Of a stretch of 64,000 nt of DNA, positions 46,914-63,776 are shown one piece after another. Both the position numbers and the translations under genes were made by a program. The notes beneath the pieces were generated by a model. It ran no database searches, was not told the origin of the DNA, and saw nothing but the letters and a program-made list of their open reading frames with translations. The number at the start of each line of letters is the position of its first letter. Positions within the stretch are counted from its first letter, which is position 1. The stretch is from Spirosoma endbachense (GTDB lineage: Bacteria > Bacteroidota > Bacteroidia > Cytophagales > Spirosomataceae): assembly GCF_010233585.1 (NCBI RefSeq), contig NZ_CP045997.1:4117768-4181767 (forward strand), read 5' to 3'.

Positions 46914-48050
46914 ATGCCCTCCAGCTCTTTACTTTCCCCAAAGACTAGAATCAAGCAAAGCGTAACTTTCTACCAATACTGGGGCATATGGTCAGTACTA
47001 ATATTGATTTGCTTAGTCAATCCGACAACCGCTTATGGGCAGGGGCTTCGCTTACTGGGCATCCCGCTGGATACTCTGCTTAGGACCAAAATACCTCGGG
47101 TCAATTCTGCATACATTACGACCTATTATGGACGTCTGCATCTCTATCTGATCAGTGACCGTCAGGACTATACACTGCGCTTACGAGGATTGAACCACTC
47201 CTTACTTTATAAACCGAATCTGGCCTGGACGCTGGGCATTGGATTCGACTACAAATGGGCTGGAACCGAATTGACCATTAAGCTACCCTGGCTAGGCTAC
47301 AATACAGTTCAGAAAGGGAAAACAAAACCCTTTGGGATCAGTCTTAACCTTAACAATCGTCGGCTATGGATAGCGGGCCAGTATCAGTTTTATCGGGGTT
47401 TCTATGTAGCTAATCCAGATCTGCTAGAGCCCGATTGGTTGGCTCATCACTCAATGTATCCCTACAGAAATGACTTGAAAAGCCAAACTCTAGCGAGTCA
47501 TGTCCAGTATCTGTTCAATCCTTTGCGAATATCCATTCCGGCCAGCCTCCTTCAACGGGAGGGACAACGACAGGCAGCAGGTTCATGGGTTATTGGGAGC
47601 TTTTTAACTTATCAACGTATCCATGCCGACTCCGCTTTAGTCCCCTTAGCTATGCAGGCTGATTTTCCAACTGAATCGTCTATTCAAGGTGTTAATTCCT
47701 TGGCGTTAGGGGTAGATGGAGGTTATATGCAGACAATTGTGCTGGGCAAGTACTACTTTATCAACATGAGCCTACGCCCCGGTTTATCACTCCTAGTGAC
47801 TAAAACTACCTTTACCAATCAATCGCCCCTGACTCATCTGGGGTTAGGCTGGCAGGGGCTAGCCTCTTTAACATTGGGCTATAGTACCACCAGGTATTAC
47901 GGAGGTATATATGCCTCAGCGGCTTTGACCAATCGAGCCTTCAGGGATGGGTTTGTGCATACAGAGACCGACTATATACGGTTGGTAGCTGGCAAGCGTC
48001 TACGGTACAGACCTAAGGGGCTGATTAAGAAACTACCAGGACTGCAATAA
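46914..48050 (+). CDS. DUF4421 family outer-membrane protein
   Basis: This 378-residue protein has a signal region ending near TTAYGQG (~residue 44). The body shows the alternating strands of a barrel and matches DUF4421: YYGRLHLYLISDRQDYTLRL, LLYKPNLAWTLGIGFDYKWAG, QKGKTKPFGISLNLNNRRLW and YQFYRGFYV. It is probably an outer-membrane protein of unknown role. Monocistronic; a terminator hairpin lies ~170 bp downstream. Confidence 0.78.
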   Translation: MPSSSLLSPKTRIKQSVTFYQYWGIWSVLILICLVNPTTAYGQGLRLLGIPLDTLLRTKIPRVNSAYITTYYGRLHLYLISDRQDYTLRLRGLNHSLLYKPNLAWTLGIGFDYKWAGTELTIKLPWLGYNTVQKGKTKPFGISLNLNNRRLWIAGQYQFYRGFYVANPDLLEPDWLAHHSMYPYRNDLKSQTLASHVQYLFNPLRISIPASLLQREGQRQAAGSWVIGSFLTYQRIHADSALVPLAMQADFPTESSIQGVNSLALGVDGGYMQTIVLGKYYFINMSLRPGLSLLVTKTTFTNQSPLTHLGLGWQGLASLTLGYSTTRYYGGIYASAALTNRAFRDGFVHTETDYIRLVAGKRLRYRPKGLIKKLPGLQ

Positions 48051-48534: not shown

Positions 48535-49179
48535 CTATGCTAAAATGTAGTAATGATGTTGAAAGGGTAATTTTATCCAACTGATCGTGTAATCATGGTT
48601 AACAGTAAAACCGGGTCGCCCATTAGCCGTAGAACCAGCCCCGTTCCAATTAAGTTGTGTGCCAGCAGCAACATTCCTCCCCTGATGAATGGAGAAAGGG
48701 GCATACCCTATAGTCGTGTTTCTTGGCGGCTTCATGTAGGATGGATCATTACTTGCGAATATAACAATACCTCTTTTAACAAAATGGAAAACCTCCTCGA
48801 AGTATTCAATTCTTTTTATATCTTTCCAGAAATCATAACAACCAATATTCTGTGCGCCGTGGTGACCAAGTAGTACATTTACATTTTGTCCAAATACCAA
48901 ATGAGAAAGTTTCTCTTTGGTTGTCTTATACTTAATTTCAATTGGATAAAATTCATTATTTTTCTCTAAAACAATATCTATATAGATATTGTGGACGTCA
49001 TTCCATAAATAAGGTGGCATTAACTCACTAGGAACATGGTATTCATAAAAAACATTATCGTAGTTGCCTGACTGCAAGAAATAAGTATATAAATAGAATT
49101 GAATATCTTGTTCTCTGATAAAATGCTTTTTACAATTAGCAAGTGCCGTAGCAATCTGATCTAATATAGTTTGTCTCAT
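48535..49179 (-). CDS. PD-(D/E)xK nuclease-like protein
   Basis: This 214-residue protein shows, after an N-terminal helix with EQDIQFYLYTYF, the series YIDIVLEKNN (Asp68) then FYPIEIKYK (Glu81, Lys83), the D...ExK core of PD-(D/E)xK nucleases with normal spacing. The C-terminal ~70 residues are Asn/Gly-rich and unfamiliar. The coding sequence is clearly more AT-rich than neighbouring housekeeping-type genes. It is the third gene of a minus-strand run with the HExxH protein and the giant NTPase, pointing to a role in defence. The nuclease call is by motif only. Confidence 0.55.
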   Translation of the reverse strand: MRQTILDQIATALANCKKHFIREQDIQFYLYTYFLQSGNYDNVFYEYHVPSELMPPYLWNDVHNIYIDIVLEKNNEFYPIEIKYKTTKEKLSHLVFGQNVNVLLGHHGAQNIGCYDFWKDIKRIEYFEEVFHFVKRGIVIFASNDPSYMKPPRNTTIGYAPFSIHQGRNVAAGTQLNWNGAGSTANGRPGFTVNHDYTISWIKLPFQHHYYILA

Positions 49180-49261: not shown

Positions 49262-49918
49262 TTAAATCTTTAGATTTATGATTGGTAGCATTATCAAATA
49301 TTGATCAATTCCTGCTACTTCTAGATTTTTATTCCGTAGCTCAATGATTTCTTCTTTAGATAATATCGTTTTATCTACCAATTTATCTGCCAAATTACAA
49401 ACAGCTTCTCTTACCAATGGTTGCTCAACAACCTCTAAAGATTTCCTCCAAAATATTAGAGCATTTTTGATAAATATTTCGTGGTTGTCTTGAAGCCTAT
49501 CAAGTTTAGAATCAATTATTTCATCTAAAAAACGGGTTACTTTACAAAAATCGTATGGGTTTGCTAAGTCTCCTTTACAATTATTAAATATGCGTTTTAC
49601 GTTTTCAATAGTATATTGAATTGATAGTTCATAAGAAGTTTCGGCTGCGTAACCGGCTAATAATCGTATTAGGTGCCAGCTTTGTCTATGATTAGCTAAG
49701 GAAGGGAAATCTACATATTCGTTACTATTAGGATTGTCAACAAACCCGGCAGAGGTATTATTACATTCTATTGAAATCTTATTAGGTAAATCATTATCTA
49801 ATCTAGCTGCATAAGATACAGTTATTTCACCATACTCGTACCCTAATAACCCTACAACTAAATGTGCGGCTTCATGTACAGCAGTTGCATATAACTCCGT
49901 TTTTTTATCTCTACACAT
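49262..49918 (-). CDS. HExxH metallopeptidase-like protein
   Basis: This is a 218-residue protein with AVHEAAHLVVGLLGYEYGEITV near the N-terminus (His15, Glu16, His19), a zinc HExxH motif in the style of FtsH-type M41 peptidases (HEAxH). A later helix WHLIRLLAGYAAETSYE resembles the M41 helix that follows and could provide a third zinc ligand region. There is no AAA domain, so it is a free-standing peptidase domain. It lies between the giant NTPase gene (299 bp upstream) and the nuclease-like gene (82 bp downstream). Its AT-rich composition suggests horizontal acquisition. A protease partner for a STAND NTPase is a known theme in defence systems. Confidence 0.6.
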   Translation of the reverse strand: MCRDKKTELYATAVHEAAHLVVGLLGYEYGEITVSYAARLDNDLPNKISIECNNTSAGFVDNPNSNEYVDFPSLANHRQSWHLIRLLAGYAAETSYELSIQYTIENVKRIFNNCKGDLANPYDFCKVTRFLDEIIDSKLDRLQDNHEIFIKNALIFWRKSLEVVEQPLVREAVCNLADKLVDKTILSKEEIIELRNKNLEVAGIDQYLIMLPIINLKI

Positions 49919-50217: not shown

Positions 50218-53200
50218 CTATAACAGAACGATTCTCGATGCTTCTCCGTTTAGAGTCTTTTGAGTTGATTTAACGCGACTCCAACGATGTACATGTTGCC
50301 GCTGCACGAACTTGTACTTGCTACTTAATTGAGCGAAAGCCTTCTCAGAGGATAATGTCAGCCAACCGCTACCTGTTTCACTGCCTAAATGTGGAGGATT
50401 CATCCGAGTATTGCCATCAGTCCAGAAGATAGATTCAACCATGATAGTATTATCTATATCTAACCACCTAAAAACACCTTGATCGCTTAGATGCCAACCC
50501 ATTTCTTTAGCTATTCGCGGGTTGAAGGCCAACCAAGTAACAATGTTTTGAGGAGTATCAAATAGGTTCATTCCATGGTTAGCAATAATTAGCGAAGGGC
50601 TATTATCGAGAGTGATAACCTCAGCCATCATCAATCGGTTATAATTCTTGAATGCGCCATAGTCGAAGGAGAAAAGATTCTCTCTGCCTGAAAAGTCCAC
50701 GCAGCTTTCTCGAAGTTCGCTATCGTACTCCCATCCTAGACCTCGGAAGAAGCTTCGTTCAGCAAGTATAATCTGTTCACCCTGGACAAGTGTCAATCGA
50801 ATTAGACTTTGATCCGCTTTCGAGGGCCACTTTTCGTCCAATTGATAAGAACCATATTGAACGTTTTCTGGTGAAAAGATACCCTCAATGAACGATGGCC
50901 AACGTTGATGTTCTATATACCACAGATTAGGATCAAAAAACGGAACGATACCCGACCAGTCAAGCCATTTTTGAAAATAACCGTGTTCGACAAGCTCTCC
51001 TAAGATCACATTTAATACATAATCTGCTACTAGATTATATGGATATGAGATGGCTTCGATTCCGAATTCAACCGCTTGTGCGCGTAGACTTAGGGCTGAC
51101 TTCTTATCTGACAGTTCGGTATTCAGTATCTCAACGATCCGTTGGCCAAGAATCAACTCCGGGATACCGACTAATTGAGTAAGTAATTGTAATTCAGTAT
51201 CTAAGATATGAAGGACGTCATCTGCGTTTATCTTATTATCAACCCAGTGTTGATCTTCATCGAAGTTTACATAGAGAACTCCTACCTCAAATAAACGCCA
51301 ATAATCGCCCCAAGGCAATGGAGAAATAACCGTTGAAGTAGTTGACGGGAATTCACCCATTTGCCGCCAAAGTTGATAAGCGCTAACGCGAACGTTAAAA
51401 AGGCGATCCTTAAGTAACTGTTGCACATGTTGTCGGAACTGAATGAGTAAAGCTGGATGGTAATTGGCAAGATACAGCATCATACGCGTAAACATCAATC
51501 GGCCAAAGTCATCCGCATTGACAAAGTAGTCATTGAGAACATCCAAAAAAACTTGTCGTTCAACCACCAATTGATGCGCAAAGAAGACTTGAGCTGATTC
51601 TGAAACACCTTTTTCGTAACTTGTTGCCAGTCGTAAAGTAATCGTCGCTAAACAGGTTTCAGGACTTATCGTTTTTTGATCTTCTAAAATAGGTACATGG
51701 CTATCCCATTCTCCTTCGCCCATCAATCGAGTGATATAGTGCTCAATCTGTAACCACACTTCCAGCACATCATAACCAGGGCTAACGACAGGCAAAATCG
51801 TTGCTAGATCGCGTAGATATGAAATATTCCCTGATTCAATAAATGATCGAGCAAAATCAGCCCAGGCTTCCTTATGAGCAGAATCTCCATCAAGCTTGGT
51901 CAATATCCTATAGGCGGCTAAACGCTTACCTTCATCATAGTTTGTTAACCAACCTCCTCGTTCATCAGCTAACAAACGTCGCCCAATGCTTCGCGCGGTA
52001 TTAGACTGTCCAGCCTCTACTGCCAATTCGGCTAAAGCAGTTAACAGATTAAAGGCAACATGTTTATCGCCAGGAAGAGTATCTAACATAGTAGCAATTC
52101 CAGCCTCTATCAATTCCTGTTTAACTTTTTGTAATACAGGCATCCAATCAAACACACCACCATTATCAGTTAATTTAGCTTGGGGGGTAATCGACTTTAA
52201 TTCGTCAAGGTTATTGACTAAAGCAGCAATTTCTCTGTTTGTCATTGGCGTATGGCCACCCACGTGAATTTTTGTTGCGGTTCTCCAGTGGCTACGCTCC
52301 TCTGGTATATAACGTGGAGATTGATATACAACGTTAACTTCCTCTAGTACTTCCTGGTATGTTGGCCGACTTTCTGGCAAAGCATATCGATCAATATCTA
52401 ATAGAAGCTGACGAATCAATTGGCTACAGTTGGTGTGGAGCTTTATTCGATTGACTAGTTGTTTTAGGAGCGATCTATCGACTTTGGATGAATTATAAAG
52501 AAATACACTACCATAAAAACTTGCAACACTGGGAATAACCGACTCATCAGCCTCAGTCAGCAAGGTTCCCAAAAGGGAAGCTAGCCCATCTTGAAGTTTA
52601 GAGTACCCATGGCTAAGCGACCAGTTAAATAGTAAAATTCCCGCCTGAGTGTTCCACTGCCAAGTAGCATCTAATAATTCATCGCTCAGCCCTTCTGCAG
52701 CGGCACTCTGTGTTACTTGTCGAACGTATTTGATATAGCCAGCCAACCAGCGTATTCGCTCTGCAGCTTTAGTTGGCTCAAAATCATTTACACGTTTAAG
52801 CCAGCCTGCCCAGTCACTGAGCTGGTAGTCTTTCTCATTTTTAATTCCGAAAGCCTCATCTAACGAGCGTGTAACCCAACGTTTTGCATGTTCCGGTTCA
52901 TTTAATATTAACCATACATTAGCTTGCTTAAGGGCTTCTTTCTGGCGACTCATTACGTCGCTTTCTTCATTTAATAGTTCCGATTCTAATAGTTCTATTT
53001 CAGCCTTTACATATTCGCTTGGAAAACCATACTGGCCGAGGTCTAGCCAAATCTGCCGTCTTAGTTTGGCAGGCCAGAACGTTGATTGTTGAATGAACTC
53101 TTGCTTGAAAAGTTTGCCTGCTTGTTGAATTGCGTGGTGTCCGTATAAACCAATTGTATGAACTAATTCTTGGAAATAACCTTCGCGCCCCCTCTCTGCA

Positions 53201-56200
53201 AAATACCAGTAGCGATGATGGAATAGTCTTTCAGGCATCGCATAGTAAAAGCGAGCTAAAGGCAATAAGATTCGATTACTTAGATGTAATTCATGATTCG
53301 ATTCCCCACCCAACTGAGCTATTTCTCCTGCACTTCGCATCCAATTTACCAACACATTATACCCCTCTGTATCATCACCCTCTTTTTCTCTAAAGTATTC
53401 GTGAAGCCGAACAGGATCGCCTACGTATGCTTTTAGAGTGATAAACCAGAGATCAGGTCGATATTGTTCAAATGTGTTTTTATCAAAACTAAATGAGTTC
53501 AATTCCTCTAGCTCATCAACAGTTGAAATGTTATTTAACCATTCTTGTATTAAGATACTGTCGCGACGCACCTGGTAGATGAGTTCAGCCACCGAAACTC
53601 GTAATATATTCTTTGTAACTTGATTGGGGGATACTTGATTGAGTAATTGGGTAAGTACTTCGTTTGCAGACGCACCATCTTTGTCTGCCAGGCAGTCTTC
53701 AATAATCAGACGGTGCTGACGAATCAGGAAAGGCAGATTAACAGAATGTAGCTCGGATAAGTGTTGTAAGACAGTTTTCGCTAAACTACGAGTCTCTTTC
53801 TTTACACTTAATGAATCCACAAGGGTTTCCAGCATGACGGACTTTATCTGCGCTAGTTTTTTGCGCTCCTCTTCGGCTATGTGTTCATACTCTGTTACCC
53901 ATGGCGATTCTTGATAGGTAAGAGAAAGTATTTTGGGAACTAAAACCGCCGGATCAGCCCACAAAGCCACGGTACGAATCCATTCCGTCAACAATTCATC
54001 TACGTTATGAAAATGGTAGTTTATTGTAAGCTGCTGTGTTAAGACAAGCTCTTTCCTGCTCAATTCGACAGGTTCTTTCAAAGCGAATAAACGCCGTGCT
54101 TCCGAGCGATGCCCATTCCCGTATAGCAAACGCACCAATTGAAACGTTGGCTTGACTTGATCAGAAGAAAGAGTTAAGGCATACTCTGCTAAGCTGTCAA
54201 GAGATAATAGCTGAGGAAAAAGTGTAAAGAACTGTGATTGATCTTGATGATAGCTACGGTTCTGTATCTCAGCCGTTAAAAAGCCATATTCTAATAATTT
54301 GTTAAGGCTATGATGTTGAGCCGCGATCGTTAAACCTAGTCGGAGATCTTCGATAATTTGTTTTAGAGGACGAAAACGATGCCTTTGTTGGTCAAAATAG
54401 CTTGCTGAAGCTATCTCCATAAACGTTTCATAACGACCAGCTTGGTATAGGTAGTACAAATAATCATGTTGAAAGAGCCGATCACCTGAATGCTGAGATC
54501 GTTCGGCCAACTTACCATAAAGAAGCTTATCGTTTTGCTCATCAAATGTATCAGTTAGAATATCTATTGCTGATTTTTTGATCACATACTGTCGAAAACT
54601 ATTATGAAAGAAGTTTCGGTAACCGAAGAACTGGTCAAAGAATTGATCTAACAGCCGCTTTAAAAGTAGTTTCTGCGGATGTGAAAGTTGCCATTCTAGA
54701 AGCATCCGATTGTGTACACCATATCGAAGCCGAGCGATCAAACCCATCAATTCAATGAAAACTTCATTATCAGCGAACTCCTGCCAGATTGAATCATAGT
54801 ACAACACGATATCCCCATCAATCAGTGGGAATAGCTTAAGCCGATCCTCAATCTCAATTACATCTATTGAAGAAAGGCTACGCATAATGTAGCTTAAATA
54901 TAGTGGATGGCCTGCTGATCGTTGAAATATTTGATCCTGAATCGTATCTGACAATGATCTGCCTAGCTTTCGTTCAGCGATTGTCCCTACGGTAGCTTTA
55001 GAAAGCGCTTCCATTTCCACCCAACGTTCAACTTGGTCGAAAGCCTGTCGAACCGGCGGAAATAAATCATTTAACTCGTAGGTTTGACTACCCAGCACAA
55101 AATAGACGCCTTCGGGTATATCATTCGGTGCTGGTAAGAAATGTAGTAGATTTTGATTGGGATGATATTCCCGCGGAATATGATCAAGTCCATCAATAAT
55201 GATAATAGCTTTCTGACCAGTGTTTTGATATTCCTGTTTGAGTTCAACAAGTTGCCGGGTAAAAATGCTTTGTATTTGTCCTAAATCCCAAGCTGTGTGT
55301 AGCACCCCCTCTTTAAAAACACCTTGATTGGCTAACTGGACAGATAAATCATGGTAAAGATGTAGCGCGTCTCCACGAGTACTGGTACGCCCATTAGCAG
55401 CCCCTTGATTAAGGTAAATAAAATAACGAATGACTCGTTCCCTCCGACTCTTTGCCCATTCAGTTAATAGAGTCGACTTACCAGTTCCAGGTCCGCCTTG
55501 TACAAAAATGTAGCCGCCGGATAACTTATCAACCGCTGATGATATGGCTCTGAGTGTTAGCGTATTTGGTTCATACTGAGTTGGATCAACAAAAAAGTCG
55601 TGAGAGAATATCTCTTGCGTGCGTTCTTCCCAACCTAGCGCTTTTTTTAGTTCAGATGCTGTGAAAAGGACACGATGAGCCGGGTCATGTAATTCACTCA
55701 AAATGAAATCAAACAGCGCATCTGTATCCTTCTTATAAGTATGATAATGTCGATGGGAAGATCGATCAGGTAGAGTGTCGCCAAAAATCAGTGTACTCGA
55801 CTGTACGAAGTGAACAAACTTGTTCTGGTCTATTTTATAATTGGCCAGTTCTTTTTTAACGAATGAACGCCAAGAAGGAGCCAACGTTGATAATTTTCCT
55901 CCTACTCGCAAAGGGTTCCATACATTCATTATAAAATGACGGAAACTACCAATATTAACTCCATTGAGCTTAATTTGATCATTTTCAGAGGGAAGTCGAT
56001 TTGAAAGCAGATATATTCGAAGTCGCTTACCTTCAGATTGATTCGCAAAAACTAACTGTTGCCAACTGGTCAACAAGTCAGGTAATAACTGTACCAATTC
56101 TTTATATCGAAACGCTGGCGTCTTATTGGCAGCACTCCATTTAACTTGAAAGGCATGAATTTCGGTTCGCGTGGCAAATTGAATATCATCTAATTTACCC

Positions 56201-56343
56201 GCTTCTGGGTCTCCGATTTTTATCCATGCTAGAGTATTATCGACTAATTCGTCATACACCTTCGCAGCAAATAATCGAAACTGTGGATACTTACCGGCAA
56301 AGTCAATTCGGTCGCCTTGGGCCGAAGCAAGCGTGGAGTTCAT
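50218..56343 (-). CDS. Giant STAND-type NTPase with N-terminal nuclease-like domain (Avs-like)
   Basis: I take ATG 56343 (MNSTLASAQGDR) as start; a TTG eight codons upstream is less likely. The 2041-residue product has an N-terminal domain with GDPEAGKLDDIQFATRT (Asp52/Asp53) and EIHAFQVKW (Gln66, Lys68), the D...QxK pattern of DUF4297/Cap4-like nucleases. Next comes a P-loop NTPase: FVQGGPGTGKSTLLTEW (~283-291) and Walker B AIIIIDGLDHIP (~380-390). From ~600 to the end it is a long helical array consistent with TPR-like repeats, plus a beta-rich last ~300 residues. This order matches Avs proteins, which recognise phage proteins with the C-terminal repeats and then activate the nuclease. Identity to any known Avs type was not testable here. 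Confidence 0.75.
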   Translation of the reverse strand: MNSTLASAQGDRIDFAGKYPQFRLFAAKVYDELVDNTLAWIKIGDPEAGKLDDIQFATRTEIHAFQVKWSAANKTPAFRYKELVQLLPDLLTSWQQLVFANQSEGKRLRIYLLSNRLPSENDQIKLNGVNIGSFRHFIMNVWNPLRVGGKLSTLAPSWRSFVKKELANYKIDQNKFVHFVQSSTLIFGDTLPDRSSHRHYHTYKKDTDALFDFILSELHDPAHRVLFTASELKKALGWEERTQEIFSHDFFVDPTQYEPNTLTLRAISSAVDKLSGGYIFVQGGPGTGKSTLLTEWAKSRRERVIRYFIYLNQGAANGRTSTRGDALHLYHDLSVQLANQGVFKEGVLHTAWDLGQIQSIFTRQLVELKQEYQNTGQKAIIIIDGLDHIPREYHPNQNLLHFLPAPNDIPEGVYFVLGSQTYELNDLFPPVRQAFDQVERWVEMEALSKATVGTIAERKLGRSLSDTIQDQIFQRSAGHPLYLSYIMRSLSSIDVIEIEDRLKLFPLIDGDIVLYYDSIWQEFADNEVFIELMGLIARLRYGVHNRMLLEWQLSHPQKLLLKRLLDQFFDQFFGYRNFFHNSFRQYVIKKSAIDILTDTFDEQNDKLLYGKLAERSQHSGDRLFQHDYLYYLYQAGRYETFMEIASASYFDQQRHRFRPLKQIIEDLRLGLTIAAQHHSLNKLLEYGFLTAEIQNRSYHQDQSQFFTLFPQLLSLDSLAEYALTLSSDQVKPTFQLVRLLYGNGHRSEARRLFALKEPVELSRKELVLTQQLTINYHFHNVDELLTEWIRTVALWADPAVLVPKILSLTYQESPWVTEYEHIAEEERKKLAQIKSVMLETLVDSLSVKKETRSLAKTVLQHLSELHSVNLPFLIRQHRLIIEDCLADKDGASANEVLTQLLNQVSPNQVTKNILRVSVAELIYQVRRDSILIQEWLNNISTVDELEELNSFSFDKNTFEQYRPDLWFITLKAYVGDPVRLHEYFREKEGDDTEGYNVLVNWMRSAGEIAQLGGESNHELHLSNRILLPLARFYYAMPERLFHHRYWYFAERGREGYFQELVHTIGLYGHHAIQQAGKLFKQEFIQQSTFWPAKLRRQIWLDLGQYGFPSEYVKAEIELLESELLNEESDVMSRQKEALKQANVWLILNEPEHAKRWVTRSLDEAFGIKNEKDYQLSDWAGWLKRVNDFEPTKAAERIRWLAGYIKYVRQVTQSAAAEGLSDELLDATWQWNTQAGILLFNWSLSHGYSKLQDGLASLLGTLLTEADESVIPSVASFYGSVFLYNSSKVDRSLLKQLVNRIKLHTNCSQLIRQLLLDIDRYALPESRPTYQEVLEEVNVVYQSPRYIPEERSHWRTATKIHVGGHTPMTNREIAALVNNLDELKSITPQAKLTDNGGVFDWMPVLQKVKQELIEAGIATMLDTLPGDKHVAFNLLTALAELAVEAGQSNTARSIGRRLLADERGGWLTNYDEGKRLAAYRILTKLDGDSAHKEAWADFARSFIESGNISYLRDLATILPVVSPGYDVLEVWLQIEHYITRLMGEGEWDSHVPILEDQKTISPETCLATITLRLATSYEKGVSESAQVFFAHQLVVERQVFLDVLNDYFVNADDFGRLMFTRMMLYLANYHPALLIQFRQHVQQLLKDRLFNVRVSAYQLWRQMGEFPSTTSTVISPLPWGDYWRLFEVGVLYVNFDEDQHWVDNKINADDVLHILDTELQLLTQLVGIPELILGQRIVEILNTELSDKKSALSLRAQAVEFGIEAISYPYNLVADYVLNVILGELVEHGYFQKWLDWSGIVPFFDPNLWYIEHQRWPSFIEGIFSPENVQYGSYQLDEKWPSKADQSLIRLTLVQGEQIILAERSFFRGLGWEYDSELRESCVDFSGRENLFSFDYGAFKNYNRLMMAEVITLDNSPSLIIANHGMNLFDTPQNIVTWLAFNPRIAKEMGWHLSDQGVFRWLDIDNTIMVESIFWTDGNTRMNPPHLGSETGSGWLTLSSEKAFAQLSSKYKFVQRQHVHRWSRVKSTQKTLNGEASRIVLL

Positions 56344-56593
56344 TATGATTTGTTTGTCTATAACCAAAGTTAATTCTTTTGACTATAGCAATTCTAAGTG
56401 GCCAACTGATCAAATCACTTACTCTCAAAGAAAAGTAAAGTTGCCGGACTGTTGAATAGGATATGGCGGCTTTCTAACATTAGATTTTACGACGAAAGAA
56501 GATAATGGTGGTCAATTACTAATTTACAGCATGTGTCATGGATATTAGGTAAATTGGTAGCCTGATGAATTAATTATTTCGTATAAGATCCCA
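56344..56593. promoter_or_regulatory. Divergent promoter region of the two giant NTPase genes
   Basis: These 250 bp are the only non-coding DNA between the two large divergent genes and must contain both promoters. The sequence is AT-rich. I could not fix a Bacteroidota -7 TAnnTTTG box with confidence, and I see no long palindrome. Confidence 0.5.
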
Positions 56594-59500
56594 ATGAGTT
56601 CCTTGCCTAAAGCCAGAAAGTCTAACAAAACGCCGAATTCGCTAGACCAAGCGTCAAGTATTCATTATTCAAATGCTGGTCACGATTATCATAAACTCTG
56701 GGTTATTCGGAGAATCGTCTCCATGCTATCACCTAAAAGTCCGTTAACATGTGTAAAAGTTGAAGGTGTAAATGCTAAGGATTCGGTCAATATTCCCCGA
56801 AAGGATAGCTTCTTAGCTGCTGATATGACTGAGTACTTTGGTGGTTGTGATTTTGAGAAATCGACGCAAGTTGTTATTACACAAATAAAGTACAGCACAA
56901 CTAACGCTGAAGGGAAATGGACTCTTTCATCTTTGACAAAACGAAAATCAAAAACGTCAAGAGATTCTGTAATTCAACGTCTTGCAGATAGCTATTCGGA
57001 TCTAATTAGTAACGGATTTAACCGAAGAGAAATAGTTGCTAAAACATCTATTCGACTGGTTAGTAATCAGTCGATAGATGACAAACTGGCACAATCGATT
57101 TCTTTAATCAAAACAGCTATTGGATTCTGTACAGTATCAATAAGCTACACCCATTTCTTAACGCTTCTTCCAGCTAAAGCACATACTACCAAGCGGCATT
57201 TAAAAACTCTTCATGACCTACTAAAGCTCTCAGATGAGGATTTTTTCAATTTTCTATCTATCCTGGATTTAAGTGGTTGCGATTCAGGATCGCGCTCCTG
57301 GCAGCAATTGGCTACTTTGGATGATCTATCCGAATCTATATCCCATTTTGAGCGTCATTCGGCATTATTGGAACTTAAAGATCTAGTGAATAGCCACATG
57401 TTACCAGAAAATGCAAGCTCAGATGGAATTAAACTGGGAGATGTTTTGGCTGCTCTCCATGTAGCCGAGTATAAAGAGTTATTCCCTGAAGAACCACAAT
57501 TGTCTTTACCAAACAACTTAATACGAACAGATGATGCCTTAAGATTAGCCCAAATAGTTTCGCAAAACACAAAGGTATTAGCGCACGGAGTAGCGGGAGT
57601 TGGCAAGAGCACTACGCTTCAACAAATAAAGGCTCATTTACCCACAGGCTCAGTCATGGTATTATATGACTGCTTCGGGGCGGGAAATTACCGAAACATT
57701 AACTCTGGTCGACATACATTACTGCGCGCTGTAATGCAGCTTAGCAATGAATTGTCAACTCAAACGGGGATACCCTTTCTAACTACTCCTCCTGCTAATG
57801 ACAAATATACTCTAATCAGCATGTTTCAGAATCGCCTTAATAAGGCGGCTGATCTTGTTAATAAGAATAATGGCTTATTAGTTATTGGTATTGATGCGGC
57901 TGACAATGCTGTAATCAAGGCTACAATTGAAGGAGAGACAAATTCATTTGTTCCGCACCTTTGGGAACTTACTCTACCTGCCAACTGTCGCTTAGTCATG
58001 AGCGCCAGAACTGGTGATCGAGCCAATTCGTTGAAAGCTCCCAAGGAAACTTACTTTTTTGAGCTTAGTGGATTTGATACTAATGCTTCTGCCGCTCATT
58101 TTAGACAAGTTTTTAAAAACGCTGGAGCAGCATCCTGTCAAGATTTTCACGGCAAAACCCGTCACAACCCACGCATTCAGCAGTATTTACTGGAGAAGGC
58201 AAAGGAGTTTAAGAGTAGCTTTCAGGCTTTTCTATATGTTTTTCGGCATGCTAATTTAGTGCCTGCAAAAATCTTTGAGGATATAATTGAGCTGGCTGTT
58301 GATCTTTCCAATGATCGGGGCAAAGCACAGGAATATTTGGCGATAATGACCTGCCTGCACCGACCAATTCCTCTGTATATTTTTGCCGATTCATGTCAAC
58401 TAACTTTAGATCAGGCACGGCTTTTTTGCGAATCCCTCCGTCCTGGAATTTTATTCGAAGATGACCTCATTGAAATTCGGGATGAGGATTTTGATACACA
58501 TTTACGCGTTCGGCCCGAAACAGAGGTCATTCTCAAACAGACCCACGCTAAATTAGCCACCCATTTTAGAACCATTGCATTAACCAACGCATATGCAGCG
58601 CAAGTTGTAGCTGAACATTATTGGGAAGCAGAGCAATACGATGAGCTAATTGACTTGGTGCTAACTGGACCTTCATTAAATATTATTACTGACAGTTTAA
58701 CGCGTATCTCTACCCAAGAGCAACAAATTCAATTAGCCCTAAAGGCGGCAGCGTACTTAAAACGCGATAGACAAGGGATACAGTTGCTATTGCTAGCATG
58801 TGAGCTTAAAAATACTAACGAAGCTACGCGCAATTTGGTCCAAGCCAATATATCACTGGCTAATCAATTTGGAAAGACCAACAACTTAGTAAGCTACTTT
58901 GATCTTACAAATAAAAGGAGTTGGATGGGAGCAATGCATTTTAAATTGGCAGCGGCTTATGCAAAAAATGAGGCCCAACGTAGCCTCGCTGAAGAGCACC
59001 TAAAACAAGGTGACGCGTGGGTCAAAAGATATATGAGGTCTTTGGATCAACATGGTTATCACTGGGAAATATACGACAACGATCTCGCTAATGAGACGGA
59101 AGCCGTTTTCTGGCTATATGGAGTTGACCAAGCGAAGCAATCACTATCTAGATGGCAACCATTGCAAAGCGTTTTGGCGAGTTTGAGGATTTGTGTCGAT
59201 CAGATCATACTTTGGTTAGACGACGAAACAATTGAAGCAAATTTGGTTGAAGCAAACCTTGCTCTTCGCTCTGAATGTATTGTATTGGCAAGGCTTTGGG
59301 AAAACAAACGATCTGTTAAGGCGGAACGTGTACATCGCGTTGCCAGCGACTTGCGGGAGTCCATAGAAGCCAAAAAGATTCGGCGTAGGAGGCCAAGAGG
59401 AAATTCTGAACAAAGCAATGGTCTGAGCTGGGCCATTCCAATATCCGAACTCTTTGCCACACATGAAGTCGATCCAGCTATTATTCTGACGGTTATTGAT

Positions 59501-62500
59501 GAACTGGCTCCATCTATGCCAGACCACGCACCTTACCGACACAGCAACTTACAAGAGTATGTTTTTCCATTACGGGGAGTCACGCTGAAATCTGTTCTTC
59601 TTCAGCAGGAAATAACAATTAATGACATTCTACCATCAAAACTACAGCCTCCTTCTAAAAAGTCCAATCAACCGGACCCAAATGAGCAAGACCGAAGGGA
59701 ATTTGTGGAAAACATTGGACCAATATTGATTAGATACAACTTATTAGCACAAACCCTGGTCCATTGTATTGATACAACAACTATTTCAAGCCAAATCGAT
59801 GAAGAATTAGACAATCTCTATAGAGTTGATACTGGCAATCGGTATAGATTCATACATAGGCAGCGGGAATGGCTTTTTGGAGCAGGACAAACCCTCGCTA
59901 ACCTCAAAGGTCAAAAGGATTTGTTAAATAAGTTGTTTGTAGAAGCCATTAGGGTTACGGGCCGATATACTGCTAGAAAGTTTTGGATTGAGTTAGGGCA
60001 ATATTTGCTACCTATTAACGAATATAAGCCACTTGGTTTAAAGTGGCTTGAGGAAGCTGCAAGTGACAGCGAAGCTGATTCAATTAATATTGAAGACCGT
60101 TGGCAACTGCTTTTACATGCTGCTGAAGCAGCTTTTCGTTTTGACAGCGAACTGAGTCAGGACCTTTACCGCAGAGCTGTTAAGGCTGCAAGCGAAGGAG
60201 TAAGTGACGAAGTTGTCTACCGATTAAGGTTTATTGCCAATCAATTAAAGACCATGGCAGCCATATCGTCATCCAAAAATAACTCTCAACTTGGAATACG
60301 GCAGGCGGCGATAACAGAAGCCTACAAGCCATTTATTTCAGGAGATATTGATGTTCCATTAGAATTGACTTTGGAGGCTGTATCTAAGCTCAATTTATCC
60401 AATGGACTGATGCTTTTTAATCGTTGGGATTTAAATGACTTCTTGCCGATTGAAAAGGCAATCGGTCTGTTGCTTCAAGGAGCAACTAGTAGTAACCGTT
60501 GGCCTGCCTGGATAAGTATTCCATTGCTTCGCATTCAGGGAGAAACGGCAAATTGGTCTGATCTAGGTCTCAAATTACTAGATGTATCAGCCTCTTTTAG
60601 TTCTAATCAAATGCGGTTTAACACTAATAAAGCTGAGGTTTTTGAAAGCTTAGTCACTTGGGCCAGACGTGATGCCTTACTAAGGCATCGCGTGGAGGCA
60701 ATACAGAAATTAAGCGATTGGGGTAAACAAAACAACTTGACTCGAAATCAAGCTGTTGAGCAACTTGATGCTACTCTCGCCTTTGTCGATACCCTACACA
60801 TTGATGCTCTTCCTGCTAAGCAGGTCCCTGTTTATAAAAGCCCCGATGAAAACTTTCTAAAATGGTATGATCGAGCAAAGCAGGGTGATTTTACTTCTTT
60901 TCAAGCAGAAATAAGTATTCAGTATGGGATGAACATTCCTAACCTACGTACCTGCCTGCTTGAGTTGGGAAATAATATCACATACAACCAGCGTACTGAT
61001 TTCCTAGAACTAATTAGTAACCTCAACCTCTATCAAGAGCATAGGTACCAGGAGCAGTACGGTCACCTAATTATTCATTTACTGGCTATCTTTTTAGATC
61101 GATGGAAAAATGTGCAAGCTGTGCAACGATGGGTAAAGCAACAGAATGGCTTGATCCGTTTTCTTGCCAAAATGCATGATAATATTATTAATGAGGGGGA
61201 ATGGCCTTGTCATCTAGAAGCTTTTCTTAAGTTACCACTCGTCAGTTCGTCACGGGCGGAAACGTTATTGCCAACTCTGGCAGATTTGTTACCTCACTTG
61301 AATGTAGACAGGTTGTGTCGTGCAGCTGATGTACTTTGCAAGCCGCTATTACTACATGATCAGGAATACTTAACCGATTGGTTACTAAATCGATTGGAGA
61401 ATAAGTTACTTCAGGATGGTAAAGCACTACCGTTTAATGTTTTGAGCAATACTTCTGAAACGAACATAGCACAGGAAGTCGAAGATCTAGCTCAATTTTG
61501 TTGGTATTTATTCGGCTATCCAGATACGCGTGTTCGATGGCAAACAGTGCATGCTGTACGAGAGATTTTGTCTTGGCATGCCAATACTTCATTGAGGAAC
61601 ACGCTGATCAACCGCTTAATGGAGCTATCTCTCACTAAAACGAGTGAATTGATACCAGCCACTTATGAATTTTTCTGGATGTCAGCTCTTGTATGGTTAC
61701 TGTTACTACTAGAACGGTTAGCAGACGAATCACCTACTACTGTAATTCCCCATGCAAAGTCTATAGCAGCGCATGCGTTTAATGAAAATCTGCCGCATGT
61801 TCAGATCCGTGGATTAGCCAAAAAAACTCTGCTCCGACTACGTAAATACGATGAGCAGTTATTTTCGACGGAACAGTGGCAGAAAATAGAGCAAATAAAT
61901 ACACCAATCGCATGCCTGCTTAATAGGAAACGTTATAAAGTAGAGGGCGATTTCCTACACTTAAGCAAAAAACGGGCTGATCGTATAAAATTTAACCATT
62001 TAGACGTCAAGGACTATTGGTTTGAACCTTTAGGAGAAGTATTTGCCCAGAGTAGTGAAACTGTCGCAATACTAGCAGAACATTGGATTTGTGATCGATG
62101 GGGTTATGACCAGGAAAGCTATAATCAATATTGGGAATATCAGAATAGGTACGATTACTCTTTAAAATACCTCTATAAGACATCGGAACCTACAATAGAT
62201 TCATTAGAAACCAATTTGACTTATAATGCTATGATGTGCGTAGCTGGCGAAATGGTTGATCAACTTAGTGTATTAATGGAAGATTGGGCAGATATAAAGT
62301 CGAAGAGCTGTTGGGAAAGTTGGTTTGAAGATCAGTTGACGAACAGTGGACCAAATGGCTGGTTGGCAGATCTGCGAACACCAATTCCGTTACTGGCAGA
62401 ATGTTGGGGCAAATTACCAGAACCTTGGAAACAACGAACGGCTGATGATTTTATTAACGTATTAGGCACTAAAGAGCCTGGTAAAATGGATTGGCTTGTT

Positions 62501-63184
62501 ATTCATGGTAATCGTGATTTCGGCTATTCATCTCGTTACGAGAGCGAACAGGATCGTTACGGAGATACCAATGTTACGAGTGTTTTCGTCTCCCCTGAAA
62601 TGGCAACTTCATTAGTGAGAGCGATTCAGGCAGCAGAGCCTAAACGCTACGTTTTTCCGTCGTTTGGATTTGATGATAAGGATGCGGAATGGAAAGATGA
62701 ACTTCCAGGTAATTTCGCGCTTCAACCTTTATTAGTGAAAGAAAAATATGTGTACGAGGGCTTAGAACAAAAGGACATCACTCGACGTAGAGCTGGAGGT
62801 ATTGGTGTTCGTATTGAACCAGCTCTGGTTCGTAGCTTATCGCTTGAGGTTAAGGAAAAAGGCATGACATACTCTGATCAATACCAAAACGAAATCATAC
62901 GCTTTGAACAATGGTCTGATGATAGCAGAGACGAACAGTATCGCCAGGAAAATACATATTCATCGGGCTTTCGGGTATGGATGAAATGGTCTGCCCTACG
63001 GGCGTATATGCATTGTAACAATCAAGTATTGGTAATTGAAGTTTTATTAAAACGGAATTATTCAAAAACAAATCGAGATAATCAATATGATCGAGGAAAA
63101 CACATCGTCTACACCCTCTACCCAAATGGAATCCTCGAATCAATGGATCGATATTACTCGCTTTGGGCAGAAAATAATTCATGA
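56594..63184 (+). CDS. Giant STAND-type NTPase with N-terminal nuclease-like domain, second type
   Basis: This is a 2196-residue protein. Residues ~25-130 contain CVKVEGVNAKDS (Glu57), FLAADMTEYFGG (Asp77) and VVITQIKYS (Gln97, Lys99), an E...D...QxK arrangement like restriction-type nuclease cores. The NTPase follows: AHGVAGVGKSTTLQQIK (~331-346) and GLLVIGIDAADNA (~427-439), then a winged-helix-like stretch. Residues ~640-1900 look like helical repeats; the last ~200 are mixed. It is not a recent copy of the left NTPase, as the motifs and the sequence around them differ. Its 3' end overlaps the next gene by 98 bp, indicating translational coupling. A role in anti-phage sensing is inferred from architecture. 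Confidence 0.75.
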   Translation: MSSLPKARKSNKTPNSLDQASSIHYSNAGHDYHKLWVIRRIVSMLSPKSPLTCVKVEGVNAKDSVNIPRKDSFLAADMTEYFGGCDFEKSTQVVITQIKYSTTNAEGKWTLSSLTKRKSKTSRDSVIQRLADSYSDLISNGFNRREIVAKTSIRLVSNQSIDDKLAQSISLIKTAIGFCTVSISYTHFLTLLPAKAHTTKRHLKTLHDLLKLSDEDFFNFLSILDLSGCDSGSRSWQQLATLDDLSESISHFERHSALLELKDLVNSHMLPENASSDGIKLGDVLAALHVAEYKELFPEEPQLSLPNNLIRTDDALRLAQIVSQNTKVLAHGVAGVGKSTTLQQIKAHLPTGSVMVLYDCFGAGNYRNINSGRHTLLRAVMQLSNELSTQTGIPFLTTPPANDKYTLISMFQNRLNKAADLVNKNNGLLVIGIDAADNAVIKATIEGETNSFVPHLWELTLPANCRLVMSARTGDRANSLKAPKETYFFELSGFDTNASAAHFRQVFKNAGAASCQDFHGKTRHNPRIQQYLLEKAKEFKSSFQAFLYVFRHANLVPAKIFEDIIELAVDLSNDRGKAQEYLAIMTCLHRPIPLYIFADSCQLTLDQARLFCESLRPGILFEDDLIEIRDEDFDTHLRVRPETEVILKQTHAKLATHFRTIALTNAYAAQVVAEHYWEAEQYDELIDLVLTGPSLNIITDSLTRISTQEQQIQLALKAAAYLKRDRQGIQLLLLACELKNTNEATRNLVQANISLANQFGKTNNLVSYFDLTNKRSWMGAMHFKLAAAYAKNEAQRSLAEEHLKQGDAWVKRYMRSLDQHGYHWEIYDNDLANETEAVFWLYGVDQAKQSLSRWQPLQSVLASLRICVDQIILWLDDETIEANLVEANLALRSECIVLARLWENKRSVKAERVHRVASDLRESIEAKKIRRRRPRGNSEQSNGLSWAIPISELFATHEVDPAIILTVIDELAPSMPDHAPYRHSNLQEYVFPLRGVTLKSVLLQQEITINDILPSKLQPPSKKSNQPDPNEQDRREFVENIGPILIRYNLLAQTLVHCIDTTTISSQIDEELDNLYRVDTGNRYRFIHRQREWLFGAGQTLANLKGQKDLLNKLFVEAIRVTGRYTARKFWIELGQYLLPINEYKPLGLKWLEEAASDSEADSINIEDRWQLLLHAAEAAFRFDSELSQDLYRRAVKAASEGVSDEVVYRLRFIANQLKTMAAISSSKNNSQLGIRQAAITEAYKPFISGDIDVPLELTLEAVSKLNLSNGLMLFNRWDLNDFLPIEKAIGLLLQGATSSNRWPAWISIPLLRIQGETANWSDLGLKLLDVSASFSSNQMRFNTNKAEVFESLVTWARRDALLRHRVEAIQKLSDWGKQNNLTRNQAVEQLDATLAFVDTLHIDALPAKQVPVYKSPDENFLKWYDRAKQGDFTSFQAEISIQYGMNIPNLRTCLLELGNNITYNQRTDFLELISNLNLYQEHRYQEQYGHLIIHLLAIFLDRWKNVQAVQRWVKQQNGLIRFLAKMHDNIINEGEWPCHLEAFLKLPLVSSSRAETLLPTLADLLPHLNVDRLCRAADVLCKPLLLHDQEYLTDWLLNRLENKLLQDGKALPFNVLSNTSETNIAQEVEDLAQFCWYLFGYPDTRVRWQTVHAVREILSWHANTSLRNTLINRLMELSLTKTSELIPATYEFFWMSALVWLLLLLERLADESPTTVIPHAKSIAAHAFNENLPHVQIRGLAKKTLLRLRKYDEQLFSTEQWQKIEQINTPIACLLNRKRYKVEGDFLHLSKKRADRIKFNHLDVKDYWFEPLGEVFAQSSETVAILAEHWICDRWGYDQESYNQYWEYQNRYDYSLKYLYKTSEPTIDSLETNLTYNAMMCVAGEMVDQLSVLMEDWADIKSKSCWESWFEDQLTNSGPNGWLADLRTPIPLLAECWGKLPEPWKQRTADDFINVLGTKEPGKMDWLVIHGNRDFGYSSRYESEQDRYGDTNVTSVFVSPEMATSLVRAIQAAEPKRYVFPSFGFDDKDAEWKDELPGNFALQPLLVKEKYVYEGLEQKDITRRRAGGIGVRIEPALVRSLSLEVKEKGMTYSDQYQNEIIRFEQWSDDSRDEQYRQENTYSSGFRVWMKWSALRAYMHCNNQVLVIEVLLKRNYSKTNRDNQYDRGKHIVYTLYPNGILESMDRYYSLWAENNS

Positions 63185-63776
63185 ATTGGAGCTTAACAAA
63201 GAGTCGAGCATTTTAGGTTTATGGATGGCTCAACGAGTTGCCGAATTAATTAGACGGGTGGAAACGACAAAGGATGAAGCCGAACGCGAAGCACTTGCAA
63301 AAGAATGCACAGAGTTAATTTTGAAACTATGGGAAAAAAGGAATACTTGGCCATCTGGCGGGCCACTTGCTGATATTTACCCTACTCTCAAAAGACTATT
63401 TGGCCCTCGTAACCAATACTACTCTATTTTCAGGAATAAGAATGTGGGGGATACTGGCCTCATTAGCAAATTGGCCGCTTTACATCAACGCGAAATGAAG
63501 CTTTTTATAAATAGCCCCAACGTTGCTACCAGTCCAGAGATAGTAAAAGCAAGCAATGAAAAATTGGAGCTGTACATTGATCATCTGTCGAAAGAGGAAA
63601 GTCAAGCCTTATTATTTACGGCTGGACGATTGTTTGAAGTGGAAAATAGTGAGAAGGACCCAGGCTTGGCAGAAGAAATGAACCAACTTTTAGCAAAAAC
63701 GCAGGATACATTTACTTTAATTGAACAGGAACGATTGGCACTAATTCAAGAGGCATCAGGGAAGACTTTGTCATAG
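63087..63776 (+). CDS. Helical partner protein overlapping the giant NTPase gene
   Basis: This is a 229-residue protein; ATG 63087 lies inside the NTPase gene (98-bp overlap), and an ATG at 63126 is an alternative start. It is mainly helical: ILGLWMAQRVAELIRRVETT, EREALAKECTELILKLWEKR, followed by a conserved-looking NTWPSGGPLADIYPTLKRL stretch and a long C-terminal helix pair. No known domain or membrane segment. The overlap and shared terminator suggest that it works with the NTPase as regulator, sensor subunit or inhibitor. This is inference only. Confidence 0.7.
   Translation: MIEENTSSTPSTQMESSNQWIDITRFGQKIIHELELNKESSILGLWMAQRVAELIRRVETTKDEAEREALAKECTELILKLWEKRNTWPSGGPLADIYPTLKRLFGPRNQYYSIFRNKNVGDTGLISKLAALHQREMKLFINSPNVATSPEIVKASNEKLELYIDHLSKEESQALLFTAGRLFEVENSEKDPGLAEEMNQLLAKTQDTFTLIEQERLALIQEASGKTLS

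Follow-up and report, generated by a model that had tools for sequence, protein, structure and literature searches.

A giant Avs1-related protein with a predicted nuclease head, encoded head-to-head with a divergent Avs3a/Avs3b pair in Spirosoma endbachense

A 64,000-nucleotide stretch of Spirosoma endbachense DNA (GCF_010233585.1, contig NZ_CP045997.1, positions 4,117,768 to 4,181,767; hereafter the window) encodes two giant STAND proteins, which we read with reasonable though limited confidence as adjacent and likely independent anti-phage sensors. The first is the product of a single minus-strand gene, here called g1 (50218..56343, stop codon included), a 2041-residue nuclease-STAND-sensor protein for which a terminase trigger is proposed. 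The second is an Avs3a/Avs3b pair on the plus strand, starting with avs3a-like (56594..63184), whose 2196-residue product comprises a Cap4-type nuclease head, a STAND domain and a sensor. As judged from its sequence, the safe statement on g1 is that its family is sister to that of Avs1 and bears a predicted nuclease head of the Avs3 kind; the profile libraries searched model it only in part. What is new is g1; the Avs3a/b pair is of an already known kind. The divergent arrangement of genes of 2041 and 2196 codons around a 250-bp gap, as given in the original prediction, was confirmed from the open reading frames (ORFs) and coordinates.

Domain structure of g1 and its relation to known Avs types

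The head of g1 (residues 1-255; 55579..56343, minus strand, as for all g1 features) is a predicted PD-(D/E)XK nuclease resembling that of Avs3. Its putative catalytic motif, D52-D53 ... Q66-x-K68 (56140..56190), is invariant in alignments of 34 and 54 rows, window row included, and so is D45. The secondary structure of the head model (H9-34, E38-43, (H46-51), E54-58, E61-68, H80-100, E107-114) displays the alpha-beta-beta-beta-alpha-beta core with the D...(D/E/Q)xK signature, consistent with a nuclease. Pfam Cap4_nuclease (PF14130) matched none of 23 g1 members at E<=0.01; a PADLOC endonuclease effector model matched three of the 23 and SAVED_PDDEXK two. The head is followed by an Avs1-type STAND/NACHT core (residues 256-600; 54544..55578). 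It carries a Walker A motif, GGPGTGKS (residues 283-290; 55474..55497), with G283, P285, G286, G288, K289 and S290 invariant in both alignments, and a Walker B motif, IDGLDH (residues 383-388; 55180..55197), which is invariant in the 34 rows, I383 being nearly so in the 54 rows. Residues 640-2041 (50221..54426) constitute the sensor, modelled as a helical solenoid whose final ~180 residues fold into a beta-rich domain. The D/E...QxK head, P-loop, Walker B and very long C-terminus that had been noted for both giant genes were confirmed, the C-terminus of g1 having a beta-rich end.

Both libraries searched, PADLOC 2023 and NCBIfam 2026, match the window g1 solely at the STAND core of Avs1b (residues 268-592, 105 bits; PADLOC E 4.7e-31), unlike three Avs1b proteins, which score 846-943 bits end to end on the Avs1b model. 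Profiles of 34 g1, 38 Avs1b and 21 Avs3 sequences were compared domain by domain with hhalign, for which reversed-profile controls gave E 0.11-0.64. The g1 head is related to that of Avs3 (E 2e-8), whereas the comparison with the Avs1 head yielded E 0.5. For the STAND domain, the closer relative is Avs1 (E 3.1e-48 versus 6.4e-9 for Avs3). The g1 sensor aligned with both, at E 4.6e-15 over 1239 columns for Avs1 and E 6e-10 over 1284 columns for Avs3, while the Avs1 and Avs3 sensors matched each other at just 8e-4. Thus, taken head, STAND and sensor in turn, g1 bridges the Avs1 and Avs3 types. That g1 might be a MalT-like STAND regulator and not a defence protein is highly improbable: the match that suggests this spans residues 245-640 only, the putative nuclease motif is invariant, and Avs2 and Avs3 occur next to g1, as do type I restriction and integrase genes identified by eye.

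With AVAST type 1, which consists of the metallo-beta-lactamase (MBL) pro-nuclease Avs1a, the trypsin-STAND-sensor protein Avs1b, and Avs1c, g1 shares the STAND core and sensor homology, but it has a predicted nuclease head where Avs1 has a protease. No protease family appeared in the Pfam tally of the 23 g1 members, and no MBL-fold Avs1a lies beside g1 in the window, where the upstream gene is Avs3a-like and the two downstream genes are without an MBL match. If the g1 head itself cuts DNA, a proteolytic relay would be unneeded. AVAST type 3 is similar in domain order, in the head and in the fold of both halves of the protein. However, the STAND domain of g1 is Avs1-like, and the Avs3a model found neither the window g1 at E<=1 nor any of the 23 members at E<=0.001. 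To AVAST types 2 and 4 (Avs4: PDB 8dgf), g1 is alike in its STAND core, and Avs4 chains occur among the fold matches described below, but no PADLOC Avs2 or Avs4 model matches the window g1 or appears in the 23-member tally.

The structure of g1 was modelled as two halves (head plus STAND; sensor), with residues 641-859 outside both. Foldseek ranked Avs3 first for both models. Chains of Avs4 took ranks 3 and 5 for the head-plus-STAND model. For the sensor model, the sole PDB fold matches at E<=0.001 were two chains of terminase-bound Avs3; Avs4 was absent among the best 50 rows for this half in either fold-search program, which excludes nothing. A plain sequence search of the PDB with g1 or the g1 profile found no Avs chain. 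The modelled fold of g1 thus resembles SeAvs3 (PDB 8dgc) from head to sensor, which is a matter of resemblance and not of membership.

In a quick tree of the STAND domains, Avs1 was nested inside g1 with a support of 0.97. In a careful tree, from which L074 was excluded for its long branch, Avs1 made up one side of a branch with a support of 99/94, and the corresponding branch for g1 was weak (66/87). Both trees kept g1 and Avs1 together and away from Avs3. A descent of Avs1 from within g1, as in the quick tree, was therefore rejected, as the careful tree did not uphold it.

The divergent Avs3a/Avs3b pair

The plus-strand ORF (56594-63184) matches PADLOC Avs3a over residues 23-2165 of 2196 (E 5.3e-156) and NCBIfam Avs3a over residues 24-2169 with 603.6 bits, which is under the NCBI cut-off of 2800. 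This cut-off is a naming threshold and not a biological feature; hence, we label the gene divergent Avs3-like. SeAvs3 was the sole PDB sequence found for the protein (E 5.9e-86). Aligned with SeAvs3, the head residues D77, E80 and Q97-x-K99 (56822..56890, plus strand) are invariant in 21 rows, and the same 21-row Avs3 alignment locates the Walker A motif (57587..57610, plus strand). Pfam Cap4_nuclease matched the head at E 0.0016, short of the Pfam cut-off. In a quick tree, the window Avs3a grouped with homologues, the five nearest of which are 46-63% identical, and away from the Avs3 of Chryseobacterium.

The end of avs3a is overlapped by an avs3b-like ORF of 229 residues (63087..63776, plus strand), for which the second Met at 63126 is the likelier start. 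It matches PADLOC Avs3b over residues 16-115 (E 2.3e-18) and NCBIfam Avs3b with 62.5 bits versus a cut-off of 200. An Avs3b-like ORF follows Avs3a in eight of 13 other loci, as judged by eye from translations; the remaining five all belong to one genus. Compared with AVAST type 3 (Avs3a plus Avs3b; SeAvs3), the plus-strand gene is alike over its full length, with a D..E..QxK head, a STAND domain, a sensor and an Avs3b-like ORF behind it, but differs by its score far under the NCBI naming cut-off and by its branch apart from the Chryseobacterium Avs3. Judged by sequence, the two ORFs are thus a divergent Avs3a/Avs3b pair. The original prediction had taken both giants for Avs-type STAND proteins with nuclease-like heads. 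This view gained support, the heads being predicted PD-(D/E)XK domains and the plus-strand gene a divergent Avs3. Of its range, 50218-63776, the two giants stood, but the 229-residue ORF inside it had gone unnamed.

Spread of the g1 family and co-occurrence with Avs3

One database search returned 360 relatives of g1 at E<=0.001. Among the best 120 of these, 99 (one being the window's own) cover 97% or more of g1 in the alignment, the others of the 99 with 25-34% identity. Such full-length homologues show that g1 is not a chance ORF. A scan with one genome per species yielded 75 other g1 loci, mostly in Bacteroidota and Pseudomonadota, the rest in Actinomycetota and a few further groups; in some loci, only the head and STAND region match. 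A g1 match was also present in 38 plasmid records. In three of these it spans 80% or more of the query, in some just the STAND part. Among the 30 plasmid records listed, which come from several genera, 15 match from the g1 head onward. Where annotated, these relatives are named 'ATP-binding protein' or 'hypothetical protein'. Two such genes lie on an E. coli IncHI2 plasmid (L146:8950-15015) and, near transfer genes, on an environmental IncC plasmid (L147:8998-15144). Neither g1 nor Avs1 was found in viral contigs and phage records; one Avs3 relative (L140) was.

Some g1 members (P0099, P0104, P0108, P0110, P0112, P0113, P0118) stop near 1585-1595 residues. At L021:3215-9272 and L042:9998-16143, the remaining sensor is encoded by a separate, slightly overlapping ORF, with the break near residue 1244 in L042. 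These split sensors are perhaps a natural two-gene form.

The original prediction proposed that both giants form a joint two-armed system or act as one complex. The distribution of the two genes argues against this; that prediction had itself named near-absence of co-occurrence in other genomes as grounds for doubting a joint system, and such near-absence is what was observed. We examined the 75 other g1 loci with flanking sequence to a maximum of 10 kb, in some cases truncated by a contig end, and searched 582 neighbour ORFs with g1, Avs3, Avs1 and Avs2 profiles; the Avs2 profile consisted of two PADLOC-named neighbours only, and this search may overlook more distant Avs2 as well as Avs4 and Avs5 genes. 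An Avs3 adjoins g1 in one of the 75. Five of 390 Cytophagales genomes contain a full-length Avs3 and 12 more short STAND matches only. Full-length or nearly full-length g1 was found in eight of the 390, of which one extends no further than model position 1582 and another is split in two, and partial, STAND-only or weak g1 matches in 13 more. Within these 390, both genes occur together in the window's genome alone. Across the phylum, nine others of 395 genomes carry an Avs3, which is incomplete in two. Of the 13 other Avs3 genomes (nine phylum-wide, four Cytophagales), none contains g1 beyond a single weak STAND-only match, and inspection by eye of the surroundings of these 13 Avs3 revealed no further giant STAND gene. 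Since relatives of each gene almost always occur without the other, g1 and Avs3 are likely two separate defences.

In favour of a joint system or hetero-complex, the head-to-head layout recurs in other branches of both trees. In Chryseobacterium luquanense (L018:3517-16039), the same divergent order of Avs3a/b and g1 surrounds a gap of 223 bp, with an Avs3a of 1554 bits and an Avs3b-like ORF; in addition, g1 adjoins Avs2 in two other loci. Window and Chryseobacterium genes fall into different branches of the quick trees for both genes (FastTree, no support values). An inherited g1-Avs3 pair was rejected for this reason, and the divergent layout arose at least twice. The chance expectation is ~0.004-0.008 Avs3 neighbours per 75 loci (Avs3 in 1.3-2.5% of genomes, 20 kb of flank, 5-Mb genomes). 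The one neighbour observed is above chance, yet defence genes cluster in islands anyway.

Nor do the gaps suggest common control. The 250-bp gap of the window (56344..56593; 33% guanine plus cytosine, GC) contains a single TAnnTTTG box (56365-56372), a sequence that we take to be the Bacteroidota -7 box and therefore label promoter-like. The only box of the window gap and of the Chryseobacterium gap faces g1; neither gap has one toward avs3a, and no shared two-way box was seen. Altogether, we consider a joint system or hetero-complex improbable and favour two independent sensors. The box also bears on the start of g1, whose ORF (50218-56367) encodes 2049 residues from a TTG and 2041 from ATG 56343. 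The ATG is the better start because the TTG at 56367 overlaps the promoter-like box.

Among 501 neighbour ORFs of g1, the largest recurrent groups were split-off g1 ends (six loci) and what were judged by eye to be type I restriction genes (five) and integrases (four). The two g1 genes beside Avs2 lie on the same strand as the latter, at a distance of 6 bp in a Bacteroidaceae metagenome-assembled genome (MAG; L028:5705-15829) and of ~300 bp in a Gammaproteobacteria MAG (L045:9998-20570). In two Bacteroidales MAGs (L036:6543-9965, L055:1685-5110), a gene for a 1140-residue protein with a partial PADLOC Upx match shares 4 bp with the beginning of the g1 ORF.

Proposed mechanism and genomic setting

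In 2022, Gao et al. reportedly found that Avs3 and Avs4 form tetramers, and that terminase is sensed by Avs1-3 and the portal by Avs4. In the mechanism we propose, the C-terminal sensor of each arm would bind the large terminase subunit of the phage during infection. The STAND domain would then bind ATP and oligomerise, and the nuclease heads, brought into a cluster, would cleave the DNA of both phage and host, halting the infection through death or arrest of the cell. In the case of g1, its own head would cut DNA directly, a shorter path than in Avs1. For each arm, we infer the terminase target, oligomerisation, nuclease activity and defence role, in g1 the target and the cutting of DNA by homology.

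Avs1-Avs4 are described as recognising the terminase large subunit, the portal or Ksap1 and then killing the cell through their nuclease action, and Avs5 as recognising JADA (PMC12931631). EpiAvs, an Avs1, responds to terminase; through its protease head, it then activates a gated MBL nuclease that is separate from it (PMC12799240). These accounts bear on a further suggestion of the original prediction, that the two giants complement each other in target range. We do not favour it: given the homology of the g1 sensor to those of Avs1 and Avs3 and a terminase-activated Avs1, both arms more likely watch the same class of phage protein. A less probable, though by no means negligible, alternative is that g1 is an independent Avs-type nuclease triggered by another phage protein, such as the portal or an early protein. 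The range of Avs triggers just cited would allow for this, and the sensors of g1 relatives share only 19-28% identity with that of the window. On the other side stand the homology of the g1 sensor over 1239 columns with Avs1 and 1284 columns with Avs3, and the terminase-bound Avs3 chains as its only PDB fold matches at E<=0.001. We therefore retain terminase as the proposed trigger of g1.

A tentative extension would make g1 an additional Avs type, either sister to Avs1 or its ancestor: one gene for a nuclease triggered by terminase, twice independently set head-to-head with Avs3. In such a compact two-sensor cassette, two unlike proteins would both survey the packaging motor of the phage, and terminase variants that evade one sensor might be caught by the other. 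If true, g1 would show the form of Avs1 without a pro-nuclease/protease relay. The two effector designs of g1 and Avs1 on one switch and sensor chassis would make a head swap testable. Because the g1 family is not rare (360 matches; eight of 390 Cytophagales genomes; plasmids) yet generically annotated, catalogues probably undercount Avs-type immunity, above all in Bacteroidota. In the open-licence PMC literature, titles and abstract openings contained no description of a g1-type architecture or of paired Avs genes.

The GC content of the locus is 0.35-0.42, below that of most of the window. The alignment to the nearest relative in the genus (G772) ends at 48050 and restarts at 64160, the flanks lying at different places in G772; with the two flanks separated there, an empty insertion site was not found in that genome. 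Named relatives of the window genes belong to Spirosoma, Runella and Fibrella. The region is best read as a small low-GC island (about 48.1-64.2 kb on the window), with g1 and avs3a/b as two of its cargo genes.

Downstream of g1, two minus-strand genes encode a 218-residue HEAAH protein (49262-49918), a putative metalloprotease, and a 214-residue PD-(D/E)XK-like protein (48535-49179), both without a convincing family match. They were rejected as partners of g1 or as an Avs1-like nuclease-protease relay, as neither was found around the 75 other g1 loci and HEAAH relatives are rare. The latter were found in two of 379 other Cytophagales genomes, near integrase-like genes (by eye), where g1, Avs3 and the PD-(D/E)XK-like gene are all absent from the surrounding sequence. 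Distant matches to the 48535-49179 protein occur on six plasmids, of which two are haloarchaeal.
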